Source of the DNA: Bacteroidota bacterium
GTDB taxonomy: Bacteria > Bacteroidota > Ignavibacteria > UBA10030
Direction: 5' to 3'
DNA: 64,000 bases
Assembly: GCA_025454835.1 (NCBI GenBank)
Contig: JALONQ010000016.1
Coordinates: 1 to 64,000 of the forward strand
Of this stretch, positions 35,282-55,435 are shown piece after piece (position 1 is the first letter of the stretch; every line of letters begins with the position of its first letter). A model generated the notes under the pieces. It was not told the origin of the DNA. It searched no databases and was given only the letters and a program-made list of their open reading frames with translations. Made by a program: the position numbers and the translations under genes.

Positions 35282-35357
35282 CGTGGACGGGGTGATGTTG
35301 AAGGGACTCTGGTGTTGCGTACCGGAGATACTTTGAAAAAGGTCGACCGCGAATTGA

Positions 35358-35612: not shown

Positions 35613-35637
35613 CGGTACGGCTTCAGCCAGGACCGCG

Positions 35638-38600
35638 TTACTTCAGCAGCAGCATCTTGCGCGATTCTGTGAATCCGCTCGCGTTGATCCGGTAGAAGTA
35701 GACGCCCGTCGCCACGGCGTTGCCCGCAGCGTTCCGGCCGTCCCACGTGACGCTATGCACGCCGGGTGCGAACTGGTCGCCCCGGACGAGCGTCCGGACC
35801 TCACGACCCAACAGGTCGAAGACCTTCAGATCGACATTCGCCCGGATGGGCAATGCAAACCGGATGGTCGTGCTGGGGTTGAACGGATTCGGGTAGTTCT
35901 GGTCGAGCGCGAATTCCGTCGGGATCTCGCTCTCTTCCACGCCCGTCGTGCCGCTGGCCGGCGGCTCGAGTTCGCGAATGATCACAGCGTCAGCCACGAG
36001 TGCCAGCGTATCCGTGCCGGCGAAGTTCGCCGCTGCGGTGTCGGCCGATACGCGCACATGGCCAAAGATACCACTACCGCCGCCGCTCAGCGTGTCGGCC
36101 GCCCTGAACGCATCCTGTCCGCCGCGGATGAACCAGTAGTTGCCGAGGAACACCTCAGCCACGCCGCGCGCGATCGCCGTGCGGCCATTCTGGCTCACGA
36201 CGGTATCCCGTCGGGGAGCACCGCCACCCGGGAAGACCGAGTACTTGGCCGCGGGCGCAGCGCCTGACAGGCCCGCCGGAATGGCGGCGTAGACGCCGAC
36301 CCACATCGAATCGCTCTGGCCGAGTTCAGCCGGGAGGAGCGGATACCATTCGAAATAGCCCTTGGTGTTGAGCTTCATCGGGAGCATCCGACGGCTGTTG
36401 CCGATGCCGATGCTGTCGGCCACGCCGACCGTCTGGATCTGCCACCGCGTCATCTTCGTCTTGTCCCAACCGTTCAAGTAGAGACCGTCGAGCGCCGGGT
36501 AGGAACCGCGGTCGGTCACCAGACCGCCGTCGTCGACCGTGAAGATGCCGCCGATGCCATTGCCGACCACCCGGACGAGGAGCAGGCTGTCGCGCGTTGA
36601 GTTCGAGACGATCTCGAGCGTGTCAACATAGCCCGGGGTGATGCGATTCGGCGCAAAGGCCACCGTCACCTTCAACTCGCCGCTGATGGCGCGCAGGAAG
36701 GTCGGATACGCCGGCGCGCTGACAACGGAGAAGCTGCTGCCGTTGCGGAACCGCATGTTGCTGATGACGAGCTGCGATTCACCGCGGCTTCCGATCGTGA
36801 ACTCACGTTTGTTCAGCGTGCCCGTCGGGCCCGCCGGGTTGCGGAAGTTCACGTCGCCGAAGTCGATCGATGTGGTAGGTGCGACGTTGACGCCGATAAG
36901 GGCGCCCGTCGGGACCTTGCGCACCCGAAGGAGGTCAACGCGCAGCAGGACCGAGGTCGTACCTATGTCCAACTCACTCTTGCGGGCCACGGTCACCCTG
37001 ATCGGTCCGCCTGGCGACAGCTTAAAGGTCTTCAATGAATTGCCGACCTGTATGAAGCCCGCCGCTTGGTTAAAGGTCGAGAAGAGGGCTGTATCCTGCG
37101 GAATGCCGAACGTGTGATTCACCCGCATGATGCCCTGTGTGTGGCCGTTCGAGGAACCAGCAGGACCGCTATGTTCGAGAATGTAGTCGCCGAACGTGCT
37201 GATGGTATTGTAGACCAGATCGGGCAATTCGAAGTCAAAATATGCCTCATGGGGCGTGGTCGCTGCACCAGCGGTGTTCACTCGGCTGCTGAGATTTGCC
37301 CCCGTGATGGGGAACATCGGTGAGGCTGTTGAGTTCGCCCAAGTCCCGGTCGCAAGTTCAGTGTAGCGCGGAAGTGTTGTGACCGAAGGAGGAGCCGGGG
37401 CGCGGAAGTGCGGTTCCGTGCCGCCAACGGAGGCGTTGAGGATGAAGTTGTAGTTCAGACCCTCGCCGGACCAGATGATGTAGGCCTTCGGCTCCTTCGG
37501 GTCGTTGCTGGTGATGACCAGCGAGTCGCGCGCGAAGCCCTCTTGGAAGGGATTGAACGCAATCTGCACGTCGAAGTATCCACCCGACTCGATGCCGCCG
37601 CTGACCGTCATCGGCGGGATCGCCAACGTTGTGCCCGCGGTGTAGTTCTTGAAGTAGAACCACGGGACCGGCGTGAGCGTCGGGAAGAAGGTCATGTCGG
37701 TGACCTTCAGCGTGTCCGTACCGAGGTTGTACAGTCGGTAGTTCCGGACATTCTCGTCGCCGACCGTCACCTGCGGAGCATCCTCCTGCACACGGACCGC
37801 GGTGAAGTTGATGTCGCGGCGGCCGAACTCCAGGTCAGCCGGCAGGCGGCTGCGAAGCAGCCGGATGGCGTCGAGTCGCATGAAGGTGGAGCTGCGCTCG
37901 TCGGCCCCGATCGTGACCGACATGGCCTGTGGACCCACGCCGGCGTAGTAGTGCACCGCCATCGGCAGCCACGTCCCGGTCGCGTACAGGGCCGAGTTGT
38001 GGTCGAGCAGGTTCAGGCGGAAGCTGTCGATGATGCCGCCGAAGCCGAACTTCCGGAAGTGTACATAGTAGTTCGCGCCGGCGTTCGGGCTGTTCAACAT
38101 GAAGTGATAGGCCAGATACGTGCCCGTCGAATCAAGATTGAACGTCCACCGGGCGGAGGATCCGTTCGCAGAACCGGAGAGGTTCGGTGAACGGCGGTGC
38201 GTGCCTCCATAGCCGGCAGCATTCTGCCAGAACGGACCGGACTCCTGGTAGCTCGAATCGGGGCTCTGGATCGAATAGCCCTCGATACCGGAGGCGTTGT
38301 CCACCGTCCAGTAGTCGAGCGGGTCGGGCTGATAGTTGATGTCGCCGCGGCCGTTCAGCGCGATCCGGTAGGGGTTCGTCGCCAGGATCGTCGTCGGGAT
38401 GTTGTTGCTGATGACGAGCGTGTCACGGAAGAGCCCGTCGGCCGTCGGCGTGAAGCGGATCACGATGCTGACCGAGTCACCCGCGTTCAGGGCCTGACTG
38501 GCGGTGTTCGTCAGGATGACGAATTGCTGGCCGCGCGTAAGCGTCAACCCGGTGAGCGTGTAGTTCGTCTTCGTCCGGTTGAAGACCTTGATCGTCGTGT

Positions 38601-40605
38601 CTTTTGAAGAGGCGACCGGAACGCCACCGACAGCGATGGGCGAAGCCGAAGGCACAAATATGATGTTCGTGAGGACCGTGGCCGAGACCGGGACACGGAA
38701 CGGTGCCGCCTGGTATCCGGCGGCGTAGACCAGGACGGTATCGCGGATCACCTGGCCGTTCGAATCCGTGGGCTGCGTCGTGAATTGCACACTGAATTCG
38801 CGCGTCAATCCGGCTCCGACGATTTCAGCCGTGGGTTTGGCGATGAACGAGTAGTTCGGCGACTTCTCGTCGAAGGCGACGCTGTCGACCGTCAGCGTGA
38901 TGTCCTGCAGGTTGAGGATACGCAGCGGAAGTGTCGAGGTCAGGCCGAAGGAAACGTTGCCGAAGGCGAGGGTGGAAGCATTGGCCGTGTTCACAACGTG
39001 TGCGCGACGCGTTCCCTGACCCTTGATGACAAGCTTGATCGGGCTGCCGTTCGGGTCGTTGCTCCAGACGAAGATCGTGTCGGTGTAGACCTTCGCCTCT
39101 TTCGGCCGGAACGTGAAGGAGAGCACGCGGTCATACGCAGCGCCAACACGATGAAGATACGGGGTGGGGACGAGACTCTTCCACGCCGTGCCCGTGATGG
39201 TGATGCTGTCCACGAGGACAGAGTCTTTCAGGTCGTTGAAGACCTGGACCCTTGCCAACTTCAATGAATCGATGCCGACGCCCGGGACCGTCGAACCGTT
39301 GGTGACCTGCGTCTGCCAGACGGCCAGTGTGGGTGATGTGAGCGTGGTATACGAGCGCGTGAAGTCGAGCCCGGCGTTGATCGTGTAGTAGCTGGTCTCA
39401 TCGATCGTGGTGGTGCGGTTGGTGTTGCCCGAGTGCGCGCCGAACCGTAGTGAGGCGCTCGTCCGGGCCGAGAGGGCCAGCTTCAGCGGGGAGCTGTTGA
39501 GCACCGCGCTGTTGTGCGTGATCACGAGCGTGTCGAGGTCGCGGCCAGGGGCCGTGCCCACGTACGACGTGTAGACCCACACGGTGCTCGTTTCGGGAAC
39601 GGCGAACGGTGGCGCCGGTGTGAACGTGAATTCATCGTTCACGTTCGCAAAGCCGGTCACGTTGATCGACGCCAGCCCGTTGTTCCGGATCTGGAAGCTG
39701 TCGAGCTTCGCGACGCCCGGACGCAGCGTATCGCTCACCCATGACAGACCCGTGATCGCGGCACCGGCCGAGTTGCGGGTCAGGATCGGATTGGTCCCCG
39801 TGCCGCTGAGTGGTATGGCGATCGTCCCGGCCGCATAGGTCAACTTCACCGTGTCGGCGACGGCGCCGACCGCATCGGGAGTGAAGGTGACATAGTACCA
39901 GGCTGAATCCTTTGAAGCCAGGGTCGGCGTCAGGTTGCCATTCTTCGCCGTGACGACATACTGCGTCTTGGCGTTGGTGACGGCCGTAATGGTGGCCGAC
40001 GTGGCCGACGTGTCCTTCACGAAGAAGGAGTCAACCTTGGCGACGTTACCGAGGACCGAACCGAACGCGATCGACGTCTTGCTGACGGTGAGCTGCGGCG
40101 GGAAGTATTCCGTCACCAGCACATCGTCGACGTAGAATCCGCCGGAGACATAGTTCACCGTCGCGAACTTGATGTAGTAACTGCCGAGAAGGTTGAGCGT
40201 GATCGACTTCTGGAAAAACGTGAGGCCAAAATCGCCACCCGCCCCTTTGCTCGGGTAGGTGCCCTTGTCGGTCCACGTTGTGCCGTCGGTCGAGACCTGG
40301 ACCCTGACCGACAGATTCGAAGCATCATTGAACGCGGCGAGCCAGAAGGTGAGCGTGCCGGGATTGGTCACCAGCGGACTGCGGACCGCATGGCTGTCGG
40401 CAGTGACCTCCCCCCATCCGGCGTATTTATCTGAATTGTGCCCATAGCCGGCGAGATTCCAAGTTTGGGCGTTCTGGAACACCCATCCCGGGACCGCCTC
40501 ACCGCTGGCCGCAATGGACTCGAAATTCTGCTGCAAGACGTACGTCTGGCCGACTGACACCGATACCAGGAGCACGACCATGCAGAACGTGGTAAGAAAT
40601 CGCAT
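35638..40605 (-). CDS. Giant T9SS cargo with choice-of-anchor/HYDIN-like repeats
   Basis: The 1655-residue protein starts with a signal peptide (MRFLTTFCMVVLLVSVSVGQ) preceded by GGAGG. A lectin-like jelly roll (about 25-165; WVFQNAQTWNLAGYGH, STDGTTWTD) is followed by many ASH/HYDIN-like Ig modules of about 110 residues that share phrases such as VSIVIRFTPTADGLFRDTLVISNN. In the middle (about 750-920) is a golvesin-C-like module containing DSTGTYLAYHFMLNSP. The C-terminal 85 residues are the T9SS sorting domain with ALDQNYPNPFNPSTTIRFALP. No enzymatic motif is seen. It is the last gene of the operon that begins with exbB, which suggests that it is exported by, or decorates, the envelope machine encoded upstream. 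Confidence 0.85.
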   Translation of the reverse strand: MRFLTTFCMVVLLVSVSVGQTYVLQQNFESIAASGEAVPGWVFQNAQTWNLAGYGHNSDKYAGWGEVTADSHAVRSPLVTNPGTLTFWLAAFNDASNLSVRVQVSTDGTTWTDKGTYPSKGAGGDFGLTFFQKSITLNLLGSYYIKFATVNYVSGGFYVDDVLVTEYFPPQLTVSKTSIAFGSVLGNVAKVDSFFVKDTSATSATITAVTNAKTQYVVTAKNGNLTPTLASKDSAWYYVTFTPDAVGAVADTVKLTYAAGTIAIPLSGTGTNPILTRNSAGAAITGLSWVSDTLRPGVAKLDSFQIRNNGLASINVTGFANVNDEFTFTPAPPFAVPETSTVWVYTSYVGTAPGRDLDTLVITHNSAVLNSSPLKLALSARTSASLRFGAHSGNTNRTTTIDETSYYTINAGLDFTRSYTTLTSPTLAVWQTQVTNGSTVPGVGIDSLKLARVQVFNDLKDSVLVDSITITGTAWKSLVPTPYLHRVGAAYDRVLSFTFRPKEAKVYTDTIFVWSNDPNGSPIKLVIKGQGTRRAHVVNTANASTLAFGNVSFGLTSTLPLRILNLQDITLTVDSVAFDEKSPNYSFIAKPTAEIVGAGLTREFSVQFTTQPTDSNGQVIRDTVLVYAAGYQAAPFRVPVSATVLTNIIFVPSASPIAVGGVPVASSKDTTIKVFNRTKTNYTLTGLTLTRGQQFVILTNTASQALNAGDSVSIVIRFTPTADGLFRDTLVISNNIPTTILATNPYRIALNGRGDINYQPDPLDYWTVDNASGIEGYSIQSPDSSYQESGPFWQNAAGYGGTHRRSPNLSGSANGSSARWTFNLDSTGTYLAYHFMLNSPNAGANYYVHFRKFGFGGIIDSFRLNLLDHNSALYATGTWLPMAVHYYAGVGPQAMSVTIGADERSSTFMRLDAIRLLRSRLPADLEFGRRDINFTAVRVQEDAPQVTVGDENVRNYRLYNLGTDTLKVTDMTFFPTLTPVPWFYFKNYTAGTTLAIPPMTVSGGIESGGYFDVQIAFNPFQEGFARDSLVITSNDPKEPKAYIIWSGEGLNYNFILNASVGGTEPHFRAPAPPSVTTLPRYTELATGTWANSTASPMFPITGANLSSRVNTAGAATTPHEAYFDFELPDLVYNTISTFGDYILEHSGPAGSSNGHTQGIMRVNHTFGIPQDTALFSTFNQAAGFIQVGNSLKTFKLSPGGPIRVTVARKSELDIGTTSVLLRVDLLRVRKVPTGALIGVNVAPTTSIDFGDVNFRNPAGPTGTLNKREFTIGSRGESQLVISNMRFRNGSSFSVVSAPAYPTFLRAISGELKVTVAFAPNRITPGYVDTLEIVSNSTRDSLLLVRVVGNGIGGIFTVDDGGLVTDRGSYPALDGLYLNGWDKTKMTRWQIQTVGVADSIGIGNSRRMLPMKLNTKGYFEWYPLLPAELGQSDSMWVGVYAAIPAGLSGAAPAAKYSVFPGGGAPRRDTVVSQNGRTAIARGVAEVFLGNYWFIRGGQDAFRAADTLSGGGSGIFGHVRVSADTAAANFAGTDTLALVADAVIIRELEPPASGTTGVEESEIPTEFALDQNYPNPFNPSTTIRFALPIRANVDLKVFDLLGREVRTLVRGDQFAPGVHSVTWDGRNAAGNAVATGVYFYRINASGFTESRKMLLLK

Positions 40606-40701
40606 GTCGGACCTCCGTGATGTATGAGTGGAATGAAGGATGATGCCGTTGACAATGTGAAGAGGGTACAGGCTACTGCCCCGCGGCGCCTCGCACGCGG
40701 C

Positions 40702-41157
40702 TCAGCGGGGGACGATCACATGCAAGATGGCGGACGGGCGTCCTACGTAGTTGCGCAGGTCTCCGTTCGGGATGACACGGTAGTACACATCAAGACTGTC
40801 GCTCTGGATACCCTGGAATTGCGACGATGAATCGGCGTAGAAGGGAGAACCGAGAGCGGGCTTACGGACGAAATCCAGGAAGCTGAGAGAAGCGATGGTG
40901 GTGTCGTTGATGGACCGTTGGATGTCCCAGGTCCGGATGTTCGTATTGAGGGTGTCATACCGCCACGTAAGAAGCACCCGGCGCTTGCCGGCGGAGGTGG
41001 AGCCCACTTGCGCCTGAAGCTCCAAGACCTCGGGTACGAACGAGAGGTGGATCGGGTCGACGACGTCGACGGGGCCGGTGCAACCCGCCCCGACAAGATA
41101 GGAGAATAATCCAGCAAGGCAAGTGACGACGAGGGGGTTGAGCGTTGTGCGTTTCAT
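40702..41157 (-). CDS. Small lipoprotein, FnIII-like, unknown role
   Basis: This 151-residue protein has a lipoprotein-type signal, VTCLAGLFSYLVGAGCTGP, with the cysteine at residue 26. The rest reads like one fibronectin/Ig-like fold (KRRVLLTWRYDTLNTNIRTWDIQRS). I do not recognise a family. It lies seven bases downstream of the DUF5683-like gene and 96 bases before the giant T9SS protein, within the same transcription direction. A small outer- or inner-membrane accessory lipoprotein of the operon is the best description. Confidence 0.65.
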   Translation of the reverse strand: MKRTTLNPLVVTCLAGLFSYLVGAGCTGPVDVVDPIHLSFVPEVLELQAQVGSTSAGKRRVLLTWRYDTLNTNIRTWDIQRSINDTTIASLSFLDFVRKPALGSPFYADSSSQFQGIQSDSLDVYYRVIPNGDLRNYVGRPSAILHVIVPR

Positions 41158-41164
41158 GGGCGTG

Positions 41165-41740
41165 TCAAAATCGATACGTCAGGGTTGAGACCATTCCACG
41201 ATCAGGGTCGACGGAGAGGCCCATGGTCGGTCCTGGGGCCTTGAAAGCGCTTCCAAACGCCTGTTCTCCCAGATCTTCGGAGAAAAGGACCGCATCCACG
41301 ACACTCGCCAGCCAGAACGCCGCCGTGAATTTCAGGAACAGGTCGCGACGTTTGACATCTTTCTGCTGAATATCTCTCGTTTCGAGCATCTGACGCCAGA
41401 GAGCCTCTGCCTCGACCCAGTTCACCGATTGATTGTACAGCGCCGACAACTCCGTCAGGCGTTCGTTCCTGCCGATCGTGTTGTTCTCGGCGAGAACGGT
41501 GACGAGTCCGCTGCCAAAGAACCCCAAGGTCAGTATCGTCCCCTTCGTCGAATGGCCAAGATACGACTGGCCGGAGCCGGGAATGATCGTCGAGAGGAGG
41601 ACGGCTCGCGCTTTTCGCGTCGACCAGCCGAAGACGGTCGTGTCGCGCATTTGAGCGGCCAGATCGCCGGTCATGCCGGCGACGAGCAGCATGACGAAAG
41701 CGGCTCGGGTGAGGCCCGTTGCATTGGGTCGAGAGGTCAC
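41165..41740 (-). CDS. DUF5683-like membrane protein
   Basis: The protein (about 191 residues from a GTG at 41740) has a signal-like N-terminus (AAFVMLLVAGMTGDLAAQ). The core LSTIIPGSGQSYLGHSTKGTI is typical of DUF5683-type Bacteroidota proteins, and a second hydrophobic segment (LTLGFFGSGLVTVLAEN) follows. The last third has another hydrophobic stretch near FLKFTAAFWLASVVDAVLF. A longer reading from 41866 would overlap the preceding gene by 65 bases and is less likely. The function is unknown; the family is often found with envelope or cell-shape genes. Confidence 0.6.
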   Translation of the reverse strand: MTSRPNATGLTRAAFVMLLVAGMTGDLAAQMRDTTVFGWSTRKARAVLLSTIIPGSGQSYLGHSTKGTILTLGFFGSGLVTVLAENNTIGRNERLTELSALYNQSVNWVEAEALWRQMLETRDIQQKDVKRRDLFLKFTAAFWLASVVDAVLFSEDLGEQAFGSAFKAPGPTMGLSVDPDRGMVSTLTYRF

Positions 41741-41801
41741 ATTGTCACCGTGTTTTCGATGTCGTTCATTCACGAAATGGCATCCGGTCCGGGACCGAAT
41801 G

Positions 41802-43256
41802 TTACCGGGTGATGGCATACTGGATGATGTTCGCTCCGAGGGTGAACTGGTCGACGCTTCCGGCATCGCCCCGGTCCCAGACCATGGAGTACGCCTTCGT
41901 CGACATGATGGCGACGAGACGGTTCCTGTAGGTCAGACCCATCAAATAGTCACGCCGGCCCGGCATGTTCTCACGGTCGTCCATACCTTCGGGAAGTGCG
42001 GTCAGTTTCTTCCAGGAGCGGAAGATCGCATGGTCGGTCGCGATCGCGCCCACGCGGGCCTCCGGTCCGATCTTCGCGCCGATGACCTCGAGAAGTTGTT
42101 CGCCTCGCTGCGGATACTGATACTTCGTCGAGAAGGCGGCATTGTCGATGACAAGCACGGACCCTTTCTTGAGGACATCGGCGATCCCGGCGACCTCCAC
42201 TTCCGTCAGCACGGGGTCAGACGGTCCCGCTAACAAGAAGAGGATCTGGGCATTGGGAAGGTCCGACGACTCGCCGCTGCTCGTCTTGATCGTCGCTTTG
42301 ATCTTCAAGCTGTCGCGCAGAAAGCGGCTGAGTGACGCCAGCGCCCGCGGTTGAGCGTTCCACTCCTCGGTCCCGGCCGCCACCTCGTCTTCGCTCGGCG
42401 GTCGATATCGGATCTGATGGATCTCGACGTCCCGGTAGTCATCCGGCCTCGTCGTGTCGGCCACCACCGCGCGAACCTCGATCGTCTCCTTCCGGAGCGG
42501 AACACGCTTGAAGTAGAAGCTGATCGTCGTGAACTCGCTCGGCTCGTTGTTCTCGTCGTAGCCGAGGATGAAGTCCTTGAACACCAGCTTCGCCTGCTGG
42601 ACCGATTCGTCGAGCGGGTCGTAGACGACGAACCCTTCACGGTTGTCGCCGGCGTAGACGGGGCGGCCCAGGTAGAGGACGGTGGTGCGGATGATCCCCA
42701 TGCGGCGCTCGAAGATCTCGTCCTCCACGCCGCTGGCCCCCTTGCGGCGCTTGTAGTACGCTTCCAGACTGAAGCTCTTGCTCGTCTTTTCTTCCCGTCC
42801 GTACCCGCTGAACAGGTCCCCGCGGTCTGAAAGCAGGAACGAACGCTCCGGGTCGAAGTTCAGCTTCGGGGCCGAATAGTTGTAGATGCTCACGCGGAAG
42901 ACGGAGAACCGGTTGGGGGTGATGCCCGCCTTGGGGTCGACCCAGTTGGCGTAGGTGAACGGGTTCGAGGAGAACTCGTAGTCCCGTGATTCCTCGGGGA
43001 ATTCGACGTTGTTCAACTGATAGTCGGGCACGTATTTCACCTCGACCTTGAAGCTTCCCCGGCTGAAGACGATGGCCGTGGTGTCGCGATTGACGCCGAG
43101 CGACGTGTCGCTGAGCGAAGCGATCATCTCGAGGTCGGGGACGAGCGTGTATTCCTCGACCTCCGGGGGGAAGAAAAGATAGCGGTAGGCGTGGTCACAC
43201 CCGGCCGCCAGGGTCGCAAGGAAGAACGCGAGGAACAACTGTCTCCGTCGGGTCAT
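41802..43256 (-). CDS. DUF4159-like lipoprotein
   Basis: The 484-residue protein starts with a lipoprotein signal, LFLAFFLATLAAGCDHAYRY. Its N-terminal part (about 20-260) is strand-rich with no family I recognise. The C-terminal part (about 330-484) matches DUF4159 in order: AQILFLLAG, then the loop VLKKGSVLVIDNAAF, then ATDHAIFRSW, then NRLVAIMSTKAYSMVWDRG and the final LGANIIQYAITR. The domain has a class I glutamine-amidotransferase-like fold but I see no catalytic Cys-His-Glu set. The stop of the upstream DUF4159/TM gene is only four bases before its start, so the two are a matched pair, one lipid-anchored and one in the inner membrane. Confidence 0.75.
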   Translation of the reverse strand: MTRRRQLFLAFFLATLAAGCDHAYRYLFFPPEVEEYTLVPDLEMIASLSDTSLGVNRDTTAIVFSRGSFKVEVKYVPDYQLNNVEFPEESRDYEFSSNPFTYANWVDPKAGITPNRFSVFRVSIYNYSAPKLNFDPERSFLLSDRGDLFSGYGREEKTSKSFSLEAYYKRRKGASGVEDEIFERRMGIIRTTVLYLGRPVYAGDNREGFVVYDPLDESVQQAKLVFKDFILGYDENNEPSEFTTISFYFKRVPLRKETIEVRAVVADTTRPDDYRDVEIHQIRYRPPSEDEVAAGTEEWNAQPRALASLSRFLRDSLKIKATIKTSSGESSDLPNAQILFLLAGPSDPVLTEVEVAGIADVLKKGSVLVIDNAAFSTKYQYPQRGEQLLEVIGAKIGPEARVGAIATDHAIFRSWKKLTALPEGMDDRENMPGRRDYLMGLTYRNRLVAIMSTKAYSMVWDRGDAGSVDQFTLGANIIQYAITR

Positions 43257-43260
43257 GCCG

Positions 43261-44694
43261 TCACTTTCGCTGGTATTCTGAAGCCACCTTGGCCCGGATC
43301 TGGTCCATGAGACCCCCCTTGGCAGTGCTGGCGTAAACGATGATGTTGATGCCGAAATGGAGCTGTCGTGTGTTGTCGAGCGGACCGCCATTGGCCGACG
43401 AGACGAACCGCCACTCGCTCCAGGCGTGCGTGTAGCCCTTGCTGGAGTAGAGCACGGCCAGCCGGCCGTTGAGGAAGATGCCCTCGAGGTACGGATACCG
43501 CTCGTTGAACCGCGTCGGGACCGCCGAACCGCCGACCGAGGTCAGCGGGACGTTCGCGTTGTCGAGACCCGGGGGCGGACCGTCAAAGTCCTCCCACGAA
43601 TGGTAGAGTTGGTGCTTCGACTGGAGCCGTTCGAACTCCGCGTCGTACCCGAGCGCGTCCTTCAGCAAGGCGCGGGAACTCTTGTTGAAGGCGCCCGGTA
43701 TGTTGGCGAATCCGTCGTCGATGAAGAGGAAGCCTCCGGCACGCAGCCACTTGCCGAGGTTCTTGGCCTCTTGCGGCGTGTACTGTACCGCGGCCGTTTG
43801 ACCCATCATGATAATGATGGGGATGGAGAAGAGGGCCTGGTCGTCGAGACGCACATTGCCGGACAGCGTGATCTTGATATCGGTGCTGTCCATGGCGTAC
43901 GCCATCAGCGCCGGCAGGGCACGCGGATAGACATTCCAGCCGTCCTCGCCGTTCGGTTCAGATTTCGACGCCCGCCAGCGCAACTGGTAGAAATTCAGGT
44001 GGCCCGAGATCTTCTTTTTGTTCGTGCGGTCCTGAACGACGAATCCTTCGAACCGGTCGGAGAAGTTCGTATAGTCGACGAGGTCGTCGCGCATCGTCTG
44101 CAGGCCCGTGCCACCTCCGCGCAGATTCACGATATCGTCGGCGATGTCGGGCTGGAAATCGACGCCGCCGGTCTGTCCTTCGCCCCATCCCAACCGGCCT
44201 CCCGCGGAGAGGCTCCGGCCGAAGGCGACCGCGCCGCCGGGAATGCCCCACGATGCTTCCGCCGCGCCCGCCCCACCCGTGAGCGCGCCGTAGAAAATGC
44301 TACCCTCCGTCCGGTTGCCGCGCGCCGACGCCCGTGCGGTCGGGGTCGTCGTGGTCTGTTCGACCCGCGTGACCTCCGTCGGCGTGAACTTGATCTCGCG
44401 CGGCGTAAAGGTCTGGGCGTACGACGGCGTCTTCGACACCGAGAACGACTTCGCGAGCCGGGGCGCGCGCAGTTCGAACCGAATGGGCGGCTCGACGAGG
44501 TCGTACCCGTCGCCGTCGGCCTGCACGGACGCTTCATGCGCACGTTCCGTCGTCGCGACTCGGAATGAGAAGGTCAGAATGAGGTGCATGCCCGCGGCGA
44601 TAAGAAAGCCGAGGGCGAACATCTTCTGGTATGTCCGCTTCCACTGACCGAGCTGAATGCGCGGTGCAGCCGGAGCGGTCGTGGATTCGCTCAT
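43261..44694 (-). CDS. TonB-like transmembrane protein fused to DUF4159
   Basis: The 477-residue protein has a short cytoplasmic N-terminus, one transmembrane helix (residues about 25-44, FALGFLIAAGMHLILTFSF) and a periplasmic remainder. The histidine at residue 37 inside the helix and the following VEPPIRFELRAP/ SYAQTFTPREIKF stretch resemble the N-terminal part of TonB-family energy transducers. A Gly-rich linker (about 120-175) leads to a C-terminal DUF4159 domain (about 280-465). This contains SIPIIIMMGQTAAVQYT, LRAGGFLFIDDGF, HQLYHSWEDFDGPP, LEGIFLNGRLAVLYSSKGY and LHFGINIIVYA. There is no TonB C-terminal domain. Because exbB and two exbD genes lie in the same operon, it may be the element they energise; this is inference. 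Confidence 0.78.
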   Translation of the reverse strand: MSESTTAPAAPRIQLGQWKRTYQKMFALGFLIAAGMHLILTFSFRVATTERAHEASVQADGDGYDLVEPPIRFELRAPRLAKSFSVSKTPSYAQTFTPREIKFTPTEVTRVEQTTTTPTARASARGNRTEGSIFYGALTGGAGAAEASWGIPGGAVAFGRSLSAGGRLGWGEGQTGGVDFQPDIADDIVNLRGGGTGLQTMRDDLVDYTNFSDRFEGFVVQDRTNKKKISGHLNFYQLRWRASKSEPNGEDGWNVYPRALPALMAYAMDSTDIKITLSGNVRLDDQALFSIPIIIMMGQTAAVQYTPQEAKNLGKWLRAGGFLFIDDGFANIPGAFNKSSRALLKDALGYDAEFERLQSKHQLYHSWEDFDGPPPGLDNANVPLTSVGGSAVPTRFNERYPYLEGIFLNGRLAVLYSSKGYTHAWSEWRFVSSANGGPLDNTRQLHFGINIIVYASTAKGGLMDQIRAKVASEYQRK

Positions 44695-44731
44695 GTACTC
44701 TTGATGATGTCAGCGTCCGGACCGGACGGCG

Positions 44732-47700
44732 TCAGCGGCCGGCTTCGATCCAACGCTTGTGCAACTCGGCAAAGAAGACCGCCGGACGGGCAGCCTCAAT
44801 GTCCTTCCACTGCTCGATGATCTCGTCGAACATCTGCACCGCGCGGCGCCGCTCGCCGAGTTGGGCATGCGCCGAGGCGATGTTCGCCTTGCACCCGTAG
44901 ACGACGTCCGTCCCGGGGAAGCTCTCCATGACCTTGGTCAGCTCCTCGATCGCGACCTTCCAGTTCTTCGCGTCAAAGAATTCCATCGCCGTTTCGTAGG
45001 CTTTGAAGGCTTCGACCTGACTCAGTTCATGAATGAGCTGTTTGGCCTCTTCCGCGCGTGGATTGTCGGGGAAGCGGTCGACGAAATGCTGGTACGCGAC
45101 CAGGGCCGAGTCGTACGACTTGTTGTTGTAGAAGTAGTCGCCGACGGAGAAGCCGGCGTCGGCCGCCAGGGGCGATGCGGGATAGCGTTCCGCGAGGCGG
45201 TCGAAGATCTCGATCATCTTGCCGGGATCGCCGGCTTGGTAGTAGCTCCAGCCCTCGTTCAACATGGCAAGCGGCGCGTTGTCGTTCTTCGGGTAGCGCT
45301 GGTAGACCCGCGCATACGCGGCCGCGGACTCCGCGAAACGGTTCGTGTTGAAGTAGGCCTCGCCGATCTGTAGCAGCGCTTCGGGCACCCGGTCGGACGT
45401 GTCGTGCTGCGCAACGAACGAGCGCAGCTGTTCGATGGCCCGGTCGGCCTGGCCCGACGAATAGAGCGACATGCCGTACAGGAACTTCGCCTCGGCGATA
45501 GAGTGTCCCGACGGATGGCTCGTGAGGTACTGCAGGTAGGCCTCGGCGGCGTTGCCGTAGTCGCCGGCCGTGAAGTAGAGGCCGGCGAGTTGGAAGAACA
45601 CGTCGTCGAGGAACGGTTGGTTCGGCAGGCGTTTTGACGCCTCGACCATCGTTCCGATCGCCTGCGACGGTTGCTGCTGGTTGCCGTGGCCGTTGGCGAC
45701 GGCGGCGTAGGCGCGGGCCAGGGCGGTCGTGTCGGGTTCCGACAGCGAAGTGGCGCGCCTTCCCGTCGTGACCGCGGCGGGGAAGTCGCCGGCCTTCAGC
45801 CGGAACTCGGCCAGCGCGGCGAGATACCGGCTTCGTTCCTGGTCAGACCCGGCCTCCTTGACGAGCTGCTCGATGATCTTCTCTCCGTCGGCCTTCTGGC
45901 CGGTGCTCATGAGCGAGAAGGCCATTTTCTCTTGCGCGCTCGGTACGAGAGCCGGGAAGACCTGCGTGAAGACGGCCGACGAGAGGCATCGCCGCAGGTC
46001 GGCGATGGCTTTGGGATGCGTCCCCATCTCTGCGTGCAGCAGGCCCCGTCCGTAGAGCGCTTGCATCCGCGTGTTCTCTGTCAGCGTCGTATCGGCTACG
46101 ACCGCATCGAATTCTGCGACGGCCCCCGGGAGGTTCTGCTGGGCGGTCAGGAATTCCGCCCGCGCCAGGCGGATGAACGGCTTGATGGAGGAGGAATCCT
46201 TGCCGCCTGAGGCCAGCGAACGGTCGAGGAACGCCTTGGCCCCGTCGGTGTCGCGCAGCGCTCCGTAGGCGCGCGTGATCCGTGCGAGCGTGAAGGGATA
46301 GTAGCTCGACGAGGGCTGGACGCGTTCGAGGTGTTCGATGGCGGGACGGTATTCTCCGAGCCCGTAGTATGACAATCCGAGGAAGTACTCCACTTCGCTC
46401 GAATCGATCCGGACGGTCTCACGTTGGAGGAGCGTTTCGAACTCGCGCACCGCTTCGCGATACCGGCGTTCGTCGAGGTACGACTTTCCGAGCTGTGTCC
46501 GGGCGATGACCGCCTCGTCCGATGCCGGCGCGGCTTCGATGACGAGCCCAAAGTCGGCGCGGGCATCGGCAAAGCGGACCTGCGACGATCGCGCCAGTCC
46601 GCGATAGAGCAGCACCTTGGGCCGCAGGTCGCTCGTAGGATAGAGCGTGACCATGGAGTCGGCGATCCGGACCGTATTGGCGTAGTCGCGAGCGTTGAAG
46701 TAGCTGCTCGTGGCAAGGAACATCGCCTGCTCGACGGGGAACTTGATCTCTTCGGCCTGCTCGGCGTACGCCTCGCCGTAGAACAGATACGCACCGGCGG
46801 CCTTGGCGTAGAACTTCTGCTCCTGGTACGTGCGGGCGATCTTGTATTGCAGCTTGGCTTGGAGCGGCTTGTTGCTGAAACTCTGGTCGATGGCCTCTTG
46901 GTACACCCGGATGCCATCCTCCAGGCCCGAATGCTCCGTCGTGTATTCGGCCATCTTGATGATGGTCGCTTCGACGAGCGACGGCATGAGCGAGAAGGTG
47001 GTCACCACCTTCCGGTAGTTCACCATGGCGCTGTCGTAGAGTCCGCGCGCGCGGTAGGCGTCGCCGATGCGGACCTGTGCTTTGGCCGTGAGTTCGAGCG
47101 TCGTCAGGTCGACGTCCTTGCCCGACACCGCTTCGAAGAGCTTGCGGTCGCGCAACGCCTTCAGCTCCACGTTCTCCCATTCGCTCTTGGCGAAGCTCTC
47201 GGGCCGGTACTTGTCGATGAGACCGTTGAACGCTCCGATGGAACGGTCCCAATGCGCCTGCTCGAAGTAGATCTCCGCGAGCTGATAACGCGCGCGAGGG
47301 TCGAGCGGATGGTCGGGGAACTGGCCGATCAGCTGTTCAAACGCCGTGGCCGAGCTGTCGAGTTGTTTCAGCTCACGGAAGCACCATCCGACGTCATAGA
47401 GAGCCTGGGGCGCCTTGTCGCTCCCGCCGTGCCGGTCGATGAGCACCCGGGCCTCCGCGATCGCCCGCGCGTAGTCCTTGTCGGAGTACGCGATCTCGTA
47501 GATCTGGTATTGCGCCAAAGCGGACAATCGGGGAGAGTCTTCGCGTTGTTCGACGATCCGATACAGGCTGATGGCGCTGTCCTTCTGTCCCAGGTTCCGG
47601 AGGGCGTTCCCCTTCTGATAGTACGACGCCGTCCGGACGCCCACGTTCAACTCGTTGTTGAGGAGCAGCACCCGGATGCTGTCCTCGTTGAGCAGGTCGC

Positions 47701-47869
47701 TGTTCGACCCGATGATCTCATCATACTGTTCGATCGCCCGTACGTAGTCCTTGGCGGCGTAGAAATCCTGGCCGCTCTTGAAGCGCGACTGCAGCTCGCC
47801 GGGCGTGGGAGTGAACCAGGCCGCGATCGAGATGCCGATGGCGATGATGATGATGGTCTTGAAGTCCAT
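44732..47869 (-). CDS. Giant TPR protein, membrane anchored
   Basis: The 1045-residue protein begins with an uncleaved-looking membrane segment (MDFKTIIIIAIGISIAAWF) and then consists almost entirely of tetratricopeptide-type helical repeats, with phrases such as AIEQYDEIIGSNSD, AYYQ/ALYDVGWCFRELKQLDSS and AEAYLQYLTSHPSGHS. About 20 or more repeats can be counted by eye. Such proteins act as periplasmic scaffolds in envelope machines, comparable to YbgF/CpoB in the Tol-Pal system. It lies 37 bases upstream of the TonB-like gene. On the upstream side, a 24-copy heptanucleotide array directly precedes its start codon, so translation or transcription may be influenced by that array. Confidence 0.82.
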   Translation of the reverse strand: MDFKTIIIIAIGISIAAWFTPTPGELQSRFKSGQDFYAAKDYVRAIEQYDEIIGSNSDLLNEDSIRVLLLNNELNVGVRTASYYQKGNALRNLGQKDSAISLYRIVEQREDSPRLSALAQYQIYEIAYSDKDYARAIAEARVLIDRHGGSDKAPQALYDVGWCFRELKQLDSSATAFEQLIGQFPDHPLDPRARYQLAEIYFEQAHWDRSIGAFNGLIDKYRPESFAKSEWENVELKALRDRKLFEAVSGKDVDLTTLELTAKAQVRIGDAYRARGLYDSAMVNYRKVVTTFSLMPSLVEATIIKMAEYTTEHSGLEDGIRVYQEAIDQSFSNKPLQAKLQYKIARTYQEQKFYAKAAGAYLFYGEAYAEQAEEIKFPVEQAMFLATSSYFNARDYANTVRIADSMVTLYPTSDLRPKVLLYRGLARSSQVRFADARADFGLVIEAAPASDEAVIARTQLGKSYLDERRYREAVREFETLLQRETVRIDSSEVEYFLGLSYYGLGEYRPAIEHLERVQPSSSYYPFTLARITRAYGALRDTDGAKAFLDRSLASGGKDSSSIKPFIRLARAEFLTAQQNLPGAVAEFDAVVADTTLTENTRMQALYGRGLLHAEMGTHPKAIADLRRCLSSAVFTQVFPALVPSAQEKMAFSLMSTGQKADGEKIIEQLVKEAGSDQERSRYLAALAEFRLKAGDFPAAVTTGRRATSLSEPDTTALARAYAAVANGHGNQQQPSQAIGTMVEASKRLPNQPFLDDVFFQLAGLYFTAGDYGNAAEAYLQYLTSHPSGHSIAEAKFLYGMSLYSSGQADRAIEQLRSFVAQHDTSDRVPEALLQIGEAYFNTNRFAESAAAYARVYQRYPKNDNAPLAMLNEGWSYYQAGDPGKMIEIFDRLAERYPASPLAADAGFSVGDYFYNNKSYDSALVAYQHFVDRFPDNPRAEEAKQLIHELSQVEAFKAYETAMEFFDAKNWKVAIEELTKVMESFPGTDVVYGCKANIASAHAQLGERRRAVQMFDEIIEQWKDIEAARPAVFFAELHKRWIEAGR

Positions 47870-47883
47870 GGTGAAGCGAGAGG

Positions 47884-48051: not shown

Positions 48052-48065
48052 ACGGTTGCCGTCTT

Positions 48066-51083: not shown

Positions 51084-51087
51084 GGTC

Positions 51088-52020
51088 TTAGAACGAGGTG
51101 CGGAAGGTCACATGATGAGTGCCGCCCACGTGGTCGAGACGGGTCGGCTGTCCATACGCATAGTCAAGGCGAAAGCCCGCCACTTCCACGCCCACGCCGC
51201 CGAACAGGTCGCCTTGTTGCGCGGGGCTCAGCGCCGCATTGCCGCCGGCGCGCACCGTGAACGAGGCTTCCTGCCCAAGCACGGTCCCGCGGGCGGCGAC
51301 GATCTCGACGCCCAGAGCCATCTGGTGGAGGTCGCCGGCAGTGAGGTAGTGCGCGTGCACGATGTAGTCGAGCGCCCTTGAAACGTACGCGACGCCGAAG
51401 GTGGCGGCGAGGTCGAGCTTGCCGTCGGGTGAGCCGTTCGACGCGATCGACGGACGGGTGATGTCCTGTACGGACGCGGCGACGATGACATCGTTCTCGG
51501 GCAGAAGGTCGGCGAACTTGGCCTGCACGCCGGCGTCGAACGACAACGTCGTCTTCGAGAGCCCGTCCTCGGGGACGGCCAGCCGTCCTGACGGAGCCGC
51601 CGATGACCAGTACAGCAACTTGACGCTGCCGCCCACCGTCAGGATGTCGAACAGGTTCTGGGCATACGATCCGACGAGCTCGCCTTCCTTCCAGGCGTTC
51701 GAGCGGAACGCTTTGATGCCGACCCCGACGTTCCCGATGAGTCCGAGGTTCGCCACGACCGAGCCCGAAAGATAGCTGAGCTGGTCGCCGCTGATCCCTG
51801 GGAACAGGTTCGTGTAGGACGTCGAGAGGGTGAGGGAACTGAGGCTGCCGATCGCGGCCGGGTTGAAGAACAGGGCGTTCGGGTCGTCTTGAATGGCGAC
51901 GAGCGAACCGCCGAGGGTCACGGCCCGCGCGCTGACGGGCAGCTTCCCGAATCCGCCGGCCGAGACCGCGGTGGCGGTCACGGCGAGTGCAAGAGCCAAG
52001 GTGAGCGGTCGAAGGGGCAT
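51088..52020 (-). CDS. porV: PorV/PorQ-family outer-membrane protein
   Basis: The 310-residue protein belongs to the PorV/PorQ (UPF0164) family of FadL-like barrels. A signal peptide (LALALAVTATAVSA) is followed by the characteristic ARAVTLGGSLVAIQDDPNALFFNPAAI. The mature chain ends in VTFRTSF. In T9SS, PorV shuttles cargo from the translocon to the attachment complex, and several paralogues usually exist. Its place directly before a large barrel gene and after a discoidin/FlgD-like protein suggests that this copy is a specialised partner of the adjacent barrel. The specific symbol is tentative because PorV, PorQ and other paralogues cannot be told apart here. Confidence 0.75.
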   Translation of the reverse strand: MPLRPLTLALALAVTATAVSAGGFGKLPVSARAVTLGGSLVAIQDDPNALFFNPAAIGSLSSLTLSTSYTNLFPGISGDQLSYLSGSVVANLGLIGNVGVGIKAFRSNAWKEGELVGSYAQNLFDILTVGGSVKLLYWSSAAPSGRLAVPEDGLSKTTLSFDAGVQAKFADLLPENDVIVAASVQDITRPSIASNGSPDGKLDLAATFGVAYVSRALDYIVHAHYLTAGDLHQMALGVEIVAARGTVLGQEASFTVRAGGNAALSPAQQGDLFGGVGVEVAGFRLDYAYGQPTRLDHVGGTHHVTFRTSF

Positions 52021-52045
52021 GGCGAGACTCGATTCCGATGACGTC

Positions 52046-53698
52046 TTAGTACGCGATCGTGACCGTGCGGGTCAGGACCGACGGATTCAGTCCGTCCGTC
52101 TCGACCCGGATCTGCAGCAAGTAAAGGCCCGGCGGCAACAGGCGGCCGTTGTCATCTCGTCCATCCCAGATGATGGCGTCCTGTTCCACGTAGGCGCGGG
52201 CGGAGGACGACTGGTTCAACAGGGTGCGGACGAGACGGCCGCTGATATCGAACACCTCGACATGCACCGGACGGGGGACGACGAGATTGGTGACGATGAA
52301 GGAGACGTGGGTCTGGTCATTTCGGCCGTCGCCGTTCGGCGTGAACGGGTTTGGGTCGATCTCCGCCGTGGAAATGATCTGGTCGGGAACGCCGGTGGTC
52401 AGCAGCGTCCAGCCTTCCTCACCGCCGGCCATCTGCACGTCCACGCGTTGCGGGTTGTCGGGCCGGAGCGACGAGATGATCTGCGCCGGGAGACGGTTCG
52501 TGAGCAGGACGGGCGTGAGCTTGATCTGGGCGACCAAGCGCGACCCTGAGGATACCCGGGGCGAGAGGCCGATCGCGATGCGTCCGGGCGTGCTGCGGGC
52601 CGAGTACCCCACCGGCGCGTTGTCGAGCAGGACGCCGGTGACCACGATCGGAACGGCCGTCTGGAGCACGAGGGTGTCGATCCCGAGTGAGCGCGCATCC
52701 AGCGTCAACGTCACTTCGTAGTTGACGATCGCTTCTTTAAGGATCTCGACGGTCTGTGGCGTGACGCGGGCGCGGGCGGCGGTCGCCACGAGCGACGTAT
52801 CGTACCACATCCGGAACGAATCGAGCCTGGGGGTTTCGAGCGTGCTCGTGTAGAGGATCGCGCGGTACTGCATGTACCTCCGCGGCTCAAACACTTCGAA
52901 AAGCGCCCCCGTATCGGCGATCTCCTGGCTCCAGGGGCTCCAGGTGTCGTTCACGGTCGAGGCGCCTCCCGTGCGGACCTGGAAGGTCGTGAACGTCTCC
53001 GGCGGAAAACCGCCCCACCAGCGGATCGATCCCCAGTTGACCGTCCGCCCCATGTCGACCACCTTCGACGTGTAGCGTCCGCCGGAGAGAAAGCCGACGG
53101 AGAAGATCCGGATTTCCGTGATGACCGTGCTCAGGTTGGACGGCGGTCCGTCCATCCGGTCGACTTGGATGACGACAAACCGAGCCGTGTCGGGGTTGAA
53201 CGTATCGTTCGTGACGGTGGTGTCGTTGATGGGCACTGATTTGGCGCGGCGGAAGCTGATGCTGTCCTGTCCCAGCCAGAGGCTGTAGCCGCGAAGACGA
53301 AAATCCTTGGACGGGGTGAAGATGTCGATCCGGTTGACAAGACGGAACGCCCCGAGGTCGATCATGAGGCGGGTCTGTTCCTGGCCGGGGACCAGCTCGA
53401 AGATGCTCGAGAAGCTGACGATGCCGTCGGTCAGCCGCTGCGGATTCGAGAACGAGGGGGACACCCGTGCCGGATCGACGTTGCCGTACTTGACCGAGAC
53501 GAGACGGCTGAGGGCAATGTTCGTGTTCTGACCGGTCTTGAGAATGGCGCGGTTCGGGATGGTCGACAGGTCGGTCTCGGTGCTGTCGGTCTGCGCGTTC
53601 GCCGCCGTCAGGGCATTGACATTGAAGGTCAACTGCGCGAACGCAACGGTGAAGCTGAGGCAGCAGAGAAGGAGGATGGCGAGCGATCGTCGGCTCAT
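52046..53698 (-). CDS. Secreted protein with discoidin-like and FlgD/gliding-type C-terminal Ig domain
   Basis: The 550-residue protein has a signal peptide (LAILLLCCLSFTVAFAQ). Residues about 60-200 resemble an F5/8 type C (discoidin) domain (RLTDGIVSFSS, MIDLGAFRLVNRIDIFTP, FVVIQVDRMDG). A second beta-sandwich region follows (VVDMGRTVNWGSIRWWG). The C-terminal 100 residues are an FlgD-like/gliding-type Ig domain with IDPNPFTPNGDGRNDQT, VHVEVFDISGRLVRTL and IWDGRDDNGRLLPPGLY. This is related to, but not the same as, the NYPNPFNP sorting domain. Carbohydrate or surface binding is plausible. It lies between exbD and porV, with gaps of about 25 bases on both sides. Confidence 0.75.
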   Translation of the reverse strand: MSRRSLAILLLCCLSFTVAFAQLTFNVNALTAANAQTDSTETDLSTIPNRAILKTGQNTNIALSRLVSVKYGNVDPARVSPSFSNPQRLTDGIVSFSSIFELVPGQEQTRLMIDLGAFRLVNRIDIFTPSKDFRLRGYSLWLGQDSISFRRAKSVPINDTTVTNDTFNPDTARFVVIQVDRMDGPPSNLSTVITEIRIFSVGFLSGGRYTSKVVDMGRTVNWGSIRWWGGFPPETFTTFQVRTGGASTVNDTWSPWSQEIADTGALFEVFEPRRYMQYRAILYTSTLETPRLDSFRMWYDTSLVATAARARVTPQTVEILKEAIVNYEVTLTLDARSLGIDTLVLQTAVPIVVTGVLLDNAPVGYSARSTPGRIAIGLSPRVSSGSRLVAQIKLTPVLLTNRLPAQIISSLRPDNPQRVDVQMAGGEEGWTLLTTGVPDQIISTAEIDPNPFTPNGDGRNDQTHVSFIVTNLVVPRPVHVEVFDISGRLVRTLLNQSSSARAYVEQDAIIWDGRDDNGRLLPPGLYLLQIRVETDGLNPSVLTRTVTIAY

Positions 53699-53722
53699 AC
53701 GCGTAGGGGGTCGGTGTCCGTC

Positions 53723-54220
53723 TCAGCCTTCCTCAACGATCCCCAGGATCTTCTTGTCCTGGTCGAGCAGGGGGGCGAGGCTGAAGCGGGTGATCTGGGC
53801 CATGTAGAGCTCGTCGATGATGCGGACCGAGTTCTCATACGGGCTCTTGCGGTCCACTTTGACGAGCGTGATCAGGTTCGGGTTCGCCTGGCCGCGCTCA
53901 CGCAGGAAACCGCGCAGCTCGTTCCAGGGGATCGAGCGAGGATTCTCGGTGCCGAGGTTCCAGAAAACGCGCCCGTCGGCCACGACGCGAAGCAGGAGGA
54001 GCGTCGATTCCGTCACTTCGCTCTTCGACTCGCTCGGCGGCAGGTTGATCTCCATGACCTGCGGCAGGCTGAAGGTCGTCGTGAGCATGAAGAACGTCAG
54101 CAGGAGGAACGCCACGTCGACGAGGGGCGTCATGTCCATGTGCACGCCAAGCCGCCGCGCCTTCTTGCGCTTGCCTTTCTTGTGGGAGCGTCCGCCCCCC
54201 AGGTTCATTCCTCCGGCCAT
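53723..54220 (-). CDS. exbD: ExbD/TolR-family protein (second copy)
   Basis: The 165-residue protein has a basic cytoplasmic N-terminus (SHKKGKRKKARR), one transmembrane helix in MDMTPLVDVAFLLLTFFML carrying the proton-path aspartate, and a periplasmic domain. ExbD works with ExbB to convert proton flow into mechanical work on a TonB-like partner. It follows the first exbD by three bases. ATG 54208 (MNLGGG) is an alternative start. Two different ExbD proteins with one ExbB are common in Bacteroidota and imply a heterodimer. Confidence 0.92.
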   Translation of the reverse strand: MAGGMNLGGGRSHKKGKRKKARRLGVHMDMTPLVDVAFLLLTFFMLTTTFSLPQVMEINLPPSESKSEVTESTLLLLRVVADGRVFWNLGTENPRSIPWNELRGFLRERGQANPNLITLVKVDRKSPYENSVRIIDELYMAQITRFSLAPLLDQDKKILGIVEEG

Positions 54221-54223
54221 CGG

Positions 54224-54688
54224 TCAATCCGTCTGCACGGTGGTGACCAACTCGAATCGGGCGATGTTGGCTTTCTGCAGGGCGTTCATGACGTCCTCAG
54301 CCGGACCGTACGGACCGGTACGATCGCCCTTGATAATGGTCCTCAATTTCGGGTTGGCGCTGCGGGCTTGTTGCGCCAGGTCGGTCATTTCTTCCAACGT
54401 CACGGGGATCGAAGCCTTCAGTTTGTTCCGTTCGCCGAACAGCTGTGCGCGAAGCTGCTGAGAGTCGAGGCCGAAGTAGTATTTGCCGTCGGGGCTGAAC
54501 GTGATGGTAATGACGTCCGACTCCGGCATCTTCGACTTGGCATGCGACGGCGGGAGCGAGACCTGAATATCTTCCGGGGGCCGGAACTGGGTGGTGAGCA
54601 TGAAGAAGGTGAGCAACAGAAAGGCCACGTCGACGAGCGGTGTCATGTCGATGGCGATGCTCATGCGGTGCTTCTTCACCTTCGGCAT
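54224..54688 (-). CDS. exbD: ExbD/TolR-family protein (first copy)
   Basis: The 154-residue protein shows the same design as its downstream neighbour: a basic start (MPKVKKHRMSIAIDM), a helix in DMTPLVDVAFLLLTFFML with the essential aspartate, and a periplasmic domain that includes LRTIIKGDRTGPYG. It starts three bases after the exbB stop. The two ExbD copies differ throughout their periplasmic parts, so they are not a recent duplication. Confidence 0.93.
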   Translation of the reverse strand: MPKVKKHRMSIAIDMTPLVDVAFLLLTFFMLTTQFRPPEDIQVSLPPSHAKSKMPESDVITITFSPDGKYYFGLDSQQLRAQLFGERNKLKASIPVTLEEMTDLAQQARSANPKLRTIIKGDRTGPYGPAEDVMNALQKANIARFELVTTVQTD

Positions 54689-54691
54689 CGG

Positions 54692-55435
54692 TCACGCCTC
54701 CTCTTCCTCTTCGCCGGCCTGCACTTTGACCGTTTGCACGATGTTGTAGACAGCCTCGTCCAGCTGATACGTGAACGTGTCCACCTTGTTGATGAAGACG
54801 TTGTAAGCCACGATCCCCGCGATGGCCGACACCAACCCTCCGGCCGTGTTGACCAACGCCTCCGAGATGCCGAGCGAGAGTTGGACGGCGTCGGGGGAGC
54901 CGGTGGTGGCCAGAGCCTGGAACGCCCGGATCATGCCGAGCGTCGTGCCGAGCAGCCCGACCATGGTCGCGACGGAGGCGATCGTCGCGATGGCAATGAG
55001 GTTCTTCTCCAACAGCGGCATTTCAAGCGAGGTCGCCTCTTCAAAAGCCTTCTGCAATTCCGCGATGAGCCGATCGGGTGACAAGGGCTTCTTGCGCTTC
55101 TGCAGCTCCCGGTATCGTGTCAAGCCGGCTTTGAGGATGACCGCCAAGGACCCCTGCTGTTGATCGCACAGGGCAACCGCATCCTCGAGTTTCTGCTCCT
55201 CGAGGGATCGTTCGACAGCCTTCAGGAATTTGGGGAGAGGTCCTTTTCCGTTCGCCTTGTGCAACGACAACGTCCGTTCGACCGTGAAGGTGAAGACCAT
55301 GATCGACAGGGCGATGAGGGCGATGACGAGCGGGCCGCCGTCTCTGATGAACTGGGGGAGAGCGTAGAAATAGATGATCGCGGAGACGACGAACGCGGAG
55401 ATGATGAGGCCCGAGACGAAGACCGACTGCTTCAT
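54692..55435 (-). CDS. exbB: MotA/TolQ/ExbB-family proton channel
   Basis: The 247-residue inner-membrane protein has three transmembrane segments: residues about 7-28 (GLIISAFVVSAIIYFYALP), a pair around 33-50, and the conserved C-terminal pair with GLLGTTLGMIRAFQAL near 157 and NTAGGLVSAIAGIVAYNVF near 195. These last two blocks are signatures of the ExbB/TolQ family. It forms the pentameric channel around the ExbD dimer. The start at 55435 begins the first helix; a longer reading from 55549 would run through the intergenic hairpins. It heads the operon that extends to 35638. Confidence 0.92.
   Translation of the reverse strand: MKQSVFVSGLIISAFVVSAIIYFYALPQFIRDGGPLVIALIALSIMVFTFTVERTLSLHKANGKGPLPKFLKAVERSLEEQKLEDAVALCDQQQGSLAVILKAGLTRYRELQKRKKPLSPDRLIAELQKAFEEATSLEMPLLEKNLIAIATIASVATMVGLLGTTLGMIRAFQALATTGSPDAVQLSLGISEALVNTAGGLVSAIAGIVAYNVFINKVDTFTYQLDEAVYNIVQTVKVQAGEEEEEA

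Follow-up and report, generated by a model that had tools for sequence, protein, structure and literature searches.

The analyzed DNA, referred to here as the window, is a stretch of 64,000 nucleotides from a genome of the class Ignavibacteria. On its minus strand, twelve genes at positions 35638-55435 form an operon (Table 1), and an ORF check confirmed all twelve open reading frames (ORFs) at the place and on the strand given in a preliminary description of this DNA. In the order of transcription, they encode ExbB, two ExbD proteins, a discoidin/CHU_C protein, a PorV-like protein, a large barrel, a TPR protein, a DUF4159 protein with a TM helix (TM-DUF4159, called transducer in the following for its proposed role), a lipoprotein with a second DUF4159, a DUF5683 protein, a further lipoprotein, and a T9SS cargo. 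The intergenic gaps amount to 3, 3, 24, 25, 4, 196, 37, and 4 bp, followed by an overlap or near-contact and by gaps of 7 and 96 bp. The gaps had been described as mostly tiny, which applies to most of them (3-37 bp), with those of 196 and 96 bp as the two exceptions. Since the cargo gene is followed by a strong terminator-like hairpin, the transcription unit plausibly ends there. A scan for sigma-70 promoters yielded matches no more numerous than in shuffled sequences, the sigma-70 model being uninformative for this phylum. Three of the genes have starts that differ from those of their longest ORFs: the ExbB ORF is readable from 55549, upstream of the conserved start; the DUF4159 lipoprotein starts at the internal Met 46 of an ORF extending to 43391; and the true start of the DUF5683 gene probably lies near 41740, judging from the sequence.

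Table 1. Features of the operon and of the region directly downstream of it, with positions in the window.
Feature	Position	Strand	Evidence
ExbB/TolQ-type proton channel, 247 aa from conserved start	54692..55435	-	MotA_ExbB 98.9 bits
ExbD-like protein 1	54224..54688	-	Pfam ExbD 97.4 bits; conserved-Asp helix DMTPLVDVAF
ExbD-like protein 2	53723..54220	-	Pfam ExbD 95.0 bits; conserved Asp present
Secreted protein, probable discoidin-like domain and FlgD/CHU_C-like C-terminus	52046..53698	-	CHU_C 26.2 bits (cut-off 27); synteny
PorV/PorQ-like outer-membrane barrel	51088..52020	-	NCBIfam PorV_fam 58.9 bits (cut-off 90); C-terminal Phe
Large outer-membrane protein, probable barrel, 1005 aa	48066..51083	-	Signal peptide; C-terminal Phe
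Giant TPR protein, 1045 aa, N-terminal membrane anchor	44732..47869	-	TPR families; YbgF-type repeats
Proposed force transducer; TM helix at the N-terminus (AxxxH37), conserved linker, DUF4159 at the C-terminus	43261..44694	-	DUF4159 91.4 bits
Lipoprotein, putative Ig-like domain and DUF4159	41802..43256	-	DUF4159 47.3 bits; conserved GC[DN] lipobox
DUF5683 protein, C-terminal Phe	41165..41866	-	DUF5683 35.3 bits
Small lipoprotein	40702..41157	-	GC lipobox in translation; orthologues in place
Giant surface protein, 1655 aa, ASH/choice-of-anchor-D repeats	35638..40605	-	T9SS type-A tail, TIGR04183 32.9 bits (cut-off 23)
Intrinsic terminator	35583..35613	-	GC-rich hairpin, 13-bp stem then T7, directly 3′ of cargo gene
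PstS-like periplasmic binding protein	34349..35398	-	PBP_like_2 52.6 bits; beyond terminator

Two further genes of the window lie outside the operon. One, on the plus strand at 30522-33692, encodes a protein in which a peptidase-MA domain and propeller repeats of the TolB type are combined with a barrel-like C-terminal part; it recalls the 'OMP-TolB-like' proteins described in PMC12204202. The product of the other (58499-61474) begins with an adenylate/guanylate cyclase domain and contains a TM helix, a stretch weakly resembling TolB_N, and TPRs.

Domain searches agreed with the preliminary assignments of ExbB, the two ExbDs, the paired DUF4159 proteins, and the TPR, DUF5683, and T9SS cargo proteins. 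The label PorV-type is less firm, as the window copy stays below the curated cut-off, with a relative's copy scoring 86.0 bits against the required 90. Similarly, the label discoidin/FlgD-like finds its support in a relative, whose copy reached 34.3 bits for CHU_C and a weak 24.9 bits for F5/8 type C (cut-off 28.2); in the window copy, Pfam made no call of a discoidin domain. For the large barrel protein, no Pfam or NCBIfam match was obtained. Its residues 563-690 contain a nearly invariant Asp/Asn-rich stretch (LVDDNDDNDRWEDG ... DRDGIPDDDRNSDGIPDY ... DDWNNNGVID), which looks like a series of calcium-binding loops, and the protein may act as a pore. The possibility that it is a short SprA was rejected on sequence, since hhalign gave a probability of 0.4% against the host SprA and HMMER found no match.

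If the twelve genes are a functional unit, their neighborhood should be conserved in relatives, and this was observed. In six genomes of the same family, the order is kept gene for gene as far as the contigs reach, and the set of genes is found again in at least five Ignavibacteria families, which is far beyond chance. Profiles of the transducer and of the large barrel match the identical 39 genomes in a sample of 391 from the class, distributed over five families; these carriers are far from independent owing to their relatedness, yet the agreement is informative because presence is patchy within families. Given this co-occurrence (39/39) and the synteny, a chance cluster was rejected. When 85,000 species genomes were scanned by pattern, which also constitutes the coverage beyond the phylum, the TM-DUF4159 protein was found at 20 loci, all of them in Ignavibacteria, 'Bacteroidetes', or unnamed MAGs.

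Across the families, four layouts can be told apart. In layout 1, that of the window's family (f1), the motor genes come first and the module follows. Layout 2 (family f14) has the order discoidin-PorV-barrel-TPR-transducer-ExbB-ExbD-ExbD-PstS-lipoproteins-cargo, with the transducer gene directly before ExbB. In layout 3 (f60, f61, and some other families), the order is TPR-ExbB-ExbD-transducer-lipoprotein with a single ExbD of another subfamily; this arrangement is that of a Ton operon in which the transducer, directly after ExbB-ExbD, occupies the position of TonB. In layout 4 (family f5), no motor accompanies the module in the cluster. Linkage of the transducer to tolQ/tolR-type genes is accordingly present in layouts 1-3 and absent in layout 4, and in all layouts the TPR gene adjoins the transducer or the motor. 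Layout-3 relatives carry an extra cargo-tail-like gene between the genes for the DUF4159 lipoprotein and the DUF5683 protein (L133 12776-14641, L136 6176-8047, L068 2874-4745). PstS-like genes were observed in the company of motors of the ExbB-ExbD-ExbD type (window 34349-35398, L039 4763-5665, L059 13155-14000).

The latter genes bear on the reading of the operon as an uptake system, in which the barrel would be a nutrient channel opened by the DUF4159 transducer, the discoidin-like and surface proteins would capture a polymer, and the PstS-like protein would bind the product in the periplasm. Ton systems do drive uptake, and PstS-like genes are found near the Ton motor, near the layout-1 operon, and inside the layout-2 operon. 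They were not seen in layouts 3 and 4, however, and in the window the gene lies beyond the terminator. The barrel, in addition to being without a Pfam match, has no plug domain, and the most constant partners of the module are the PorV-like, lipoprotein, and T9SS-cargo genes and not enzymes or inner-membrane importers. An uptake function is rather unlikely.

The residues on which a motor of this type relies are intact in the window, namely the threonine motifs GLLGT and NTAGG of ExbB and the proton-carrying Asp of ExbD. In a tree of ExbB sequences, the operon ExbBs of family f1 form a clade of their own (support 99/97) apart from the Ton ExbBs, those of f14 form another (100/100), and those of layout 3 are located far away. 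Since the f1 and f14 clades fall among Ton-type ExbBs of the same order, the motors of these two families are probably paralogues of Ton motors. They may be of one common origin, the tree supporting both clades and not the deeper branching. The module appears to have acquired a motor on more than one occasion, and this repeated attachment of motors from other ExbB clades argues that it needs a motor, while the absence of an adjacent motor in f5 implies that a dedicated one is not always needed. In one relative (G018; L035 13571-14038 and 14044-14784), Asn replaces the proton-carrying Asp of ExbD1 and a channel-motif Thr of ExbB is changed to Val; its ExbB sits on a long branch of the tree and its ExbD2 retains the Asp. 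By sequence, this motor may be degenerate or may work with one active ExbD.

The host genome, which was searched family by family, contains three ExbB homologues. Besides that of the operon (contig C10), one belongs to a separate ExbB-ExbD-ExbD-TonB cluster on contig C16, and one on contig C33 is accompanied by a TolA/TonB-like protein, together forming a TolQ/TolA-like pair. The domain search of the genome revealed four TonB_C matches, on C16, C3, C45, and C33, and 25 TonB-receptor plugs, all on other contigs than C10, so that neither domain occurs on the contig of the operon and the preliminary statement that a conventional TonB and a TonB-dependent receptor are missing here holds. SprA is encoded on C15, outside the operon. 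Together, the separate Ton cluster, the TolQ/TolA-like pair, the 25 plugs, and SprA indicate that the operon motor is an additional one. The idea that the operon's ExbB-ExbD merely serves the Ton system was rejected in view of the separate Ton cluster, and neither of the two findings by which the preliminary proposal would have fallen was made: gene order is kept in relatives, and the operon's ExbB/ExbD does not group with a standard TonB gene, as TonB is encoded with another ExbB-ExbD-ExbD set while the operon ExbB falls into its own clade. The operon hence resembles ExbBD-TonB in having an ExbB plus ExbD motor, probably paralogous to the host Ton motor, and a transducer composed of TM helix, linker, and domain, but differs from it by the absence of TonB_C and of a TonB-dependent receptor and by its separate ExbB clade.

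The protein encoded at 43261-44694 has a single N-terminal TM helix, a conserved linker rich in Pro and Gly, and DUF4159 at residues 250-455. An alignment of 36 transducer sequences, including the copy of the window's own locus and ranging down to about 40% identity to it, contains a His in the TM helix in 36/36 sequences and Ala or Ser at position -4 in 36/36, while the surrounding positions are variable. The His is still conserved in family f5. This A/S-xxx-His corresponds to the S-xxx-H half of the SHLS motif of TonB and TolA, with the residue spacing taken from E. coli TonB. The motif is present only in part, since at +7 the Leu is not maintained and at +11 Thr or Ser predominates. Through SHLS, TonB and TolA attach to their motors (PMC12204202). 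With its single N-terminal TM helix carrying S-xxx-H and its tolQ/tolR linkage, the transducer shares these two features with the class of proteins of TolA/TonB topology. Within the host, the TolA-like protein P0020 has S-xxx-H as in the transducer, and the predicted helix of TonB contains no His.

These features speak against a reading in which the TM-DUF4159 protein is not a transducer, ExbB-ExbD-ExbD is a spare Ton motor for a TonB acting in trans, and the two DUF4159 proteins play a structural part of their own. Family f5, where the module is found without its own motor, and the probable paralogy of the window motor to the Ton motor would fit such a scenario, but it leaves the invariant TM His with A/S at -4, the placement of the transducer in layout 3, where it takes the position of TonB, and the joining of different motors to the same module unaccounted for, and appears scarcely credible.

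At the C-terminus of the transducer, Pfam detected DUF4159 alone, with neither TonB_C nor vWA, and a profile search against the PDB gave 4i66 as the only match (E 3.4e-12). This entry is Hoch_4089, a DUF4159 protein of Haliangium. A search of plasmids yielded one distant match, which covers the DUF4159 part only and is uninformative. For the DUF4159 lipoprotein, the DUF4159 part of an AlphaFold2 model (mean pLDDT 76) matches 4i66 with a Z of 22.8 over 185 residues, followed by amidotransferase, ThuA, and IFT52 domains at Z 8-11; the N-terminal domain gave weak Ig-like matches (yjhA, MPT63). The two operon proteins hence share their fold with ordinary DUF4159 proteins such as Hoch_4089 and the host protein P0022. 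The latter, a protein of about 220-270 aa with a signal peptide, differs from the transducer by having no TM-His helix. A full-text literature search for 'DUF4159', with or without ExbB, found no paper among openly licensed (CC0/CC BY/CC BY-SA) texts, and to our knowledge DUF4159 has no known role as the tip of a transducer.

The closest precedent stems from a 2025 description of proteins with TonB topology that carry SHLS helices and a vWA tip and whose genes have those for TPR proteins, tolQ, and a pair of tolR genes as neighbors (PMC12204202). Common to them and to the operon are an SHLS-type TM helix, a linker, a tip other than that of TonB, and adjacent genes for a TPR protein, one TolQ-like protein, and one or two TolR-like proteins. 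In contrast to them, the operon's transducer has no vWA fold but DUF4159, of amidotransferase/ThuA/GIFT-like fold, as its tip, and the operon has fixed partners, namely the second DUF4159 lipoprotein, the PorV-like protein, the large barrel that matches no model, and the T9SS cargo. The DUF4159-tipped machine looks like a variant of the vWA-tipped type in which the tip and the fixed outer-membrane partners are new. Part of the preliminary proposal was thus preceded by this description of non-TonB tips on motor-coupled TonB-like proteins; the main text of PMC12204202 mentions neither DUF domains nor Ignavibacteria.

Two other known systems offer alternative readings of the same parts. In the manner of Tol-Pal, the motor, the TPR protein, and the lipoproteins might maintain the envelope by tethering or remodeling the outer membrane, with the surface protein being incidental. 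The TPR protein matches YbgF/CpoB-type repeats, and ExbB scores better with the TolQ model than with the ExbB model. Yet Pfam and NCBIfam searches detected no TolB or Pal domain among the twelve operon proteins, a separate TolQ/TolA-like pair exists in the host, and the module is absent from 352 of the 391 genomes of the class, unlike a housekeeping system, so that envelope maintenance is a very improbable function. By analogy to Agl-Glt of Myxococcus xanthus, the operon could also encode a machine for gliding or surface motility that moves a surface adhesin. The Agl-Glt parts comprise AglR plus AglQ/AglS, GltG with TonB_C, TPR proteins, and outer-membrane proteins (PMC3169522), and the operon agrees with this list by category of part only: one TolQ-type and two TolR-type proteins, a TM transducer, a giant TPR protein, outer-membrane proteins, and lipoproteins, together with a giant surface protein. 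Such category matches are weak evidence, however, and GltG carries FHA and TonB_C, whereas the operon transducer is devoid of TonB_C. We consider an Agl-Glt-like gliding machine quite unlikely.

The preliminary description had proposed an uncharacterised proton-driven machine for secretion, surface assembly, or motility. Of this proposal, the conservation of the unit, its own proton motor, and the TonB-like transducer are borne out, whereas secretion, assembly, and motility are candidate functions. With the T9SS (PorV-SprA-GldLM), the operon has in common a PorV-like protein and the type-A tail of its cargo; it differs from it in that SprA is encoded elsewhere in the genome and is without sequence relation to the large barrel. 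The type-A tail of the cargo is conserved in relatives (34-42 bits), and as this tail is of the ordinary type and SprA is present in the genome, export needs no new machine. This suggests that the giant protein is exported by the ordinary T9SS; its anchoring, assembly, or movement may afterwards be the task of the machine.

The twelve genes probably encode a hitherto undescribed machine for transmitting force across the envelope. That it is a trans-envelope force-transduction machine of the Ton/Tol kind, driven by the proton-motive force and with a DUF4159 tip in the place of the C-terminal domain of TonB/TolA, appears fairly probable to us. The basis for this reading is the gene content, the synteny, the co-occurrence of transducer and barrel, the motor residues, the His signature, the DUF4159 fold, and the separateness from Ton. 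In such a machine, ExbB and the two different ExbDs would form the motor, on which the N-terminal helix of the 43261-44694 protein would dock via A/S-xxx-His. Its linker would span the periplasm, with the TPR protein probably giving it stability, and the DUF4159 tip would pull or switch a partner at the outer membrane, most likely the adjacent DUF4159 lipoprotein. The lipoprotein in turn might act on a complex of the PorV-like protein and the large barrel, which would present, anchor, or move the giant T9SS-exported protein on the surface of the cell. Candidate outputs would be assembly, anchoring, motility, or uptake. The narrower version, in which the DUF4159 domains of transducer and lipoprotein meet in the periplasm and the proton-driven machine moves or assembles the T9SS-exported surface protein via a new PorV/barrel complex, is possible and is put forward tentatively.

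Ton and Tol are the classic routes by which energy of the inner membrane is brought to the outer membrane. If the proposed force-transduction machine exists, a different fold has replaced the tip of its transducer and motors of different origin have been joined to the module in different families. This would show that the motor can be plugged in as a source of power and that the tip is an exchangeable tool; DUF4159 would gain a role, and this class of transducers would gain outer-membrane partners.
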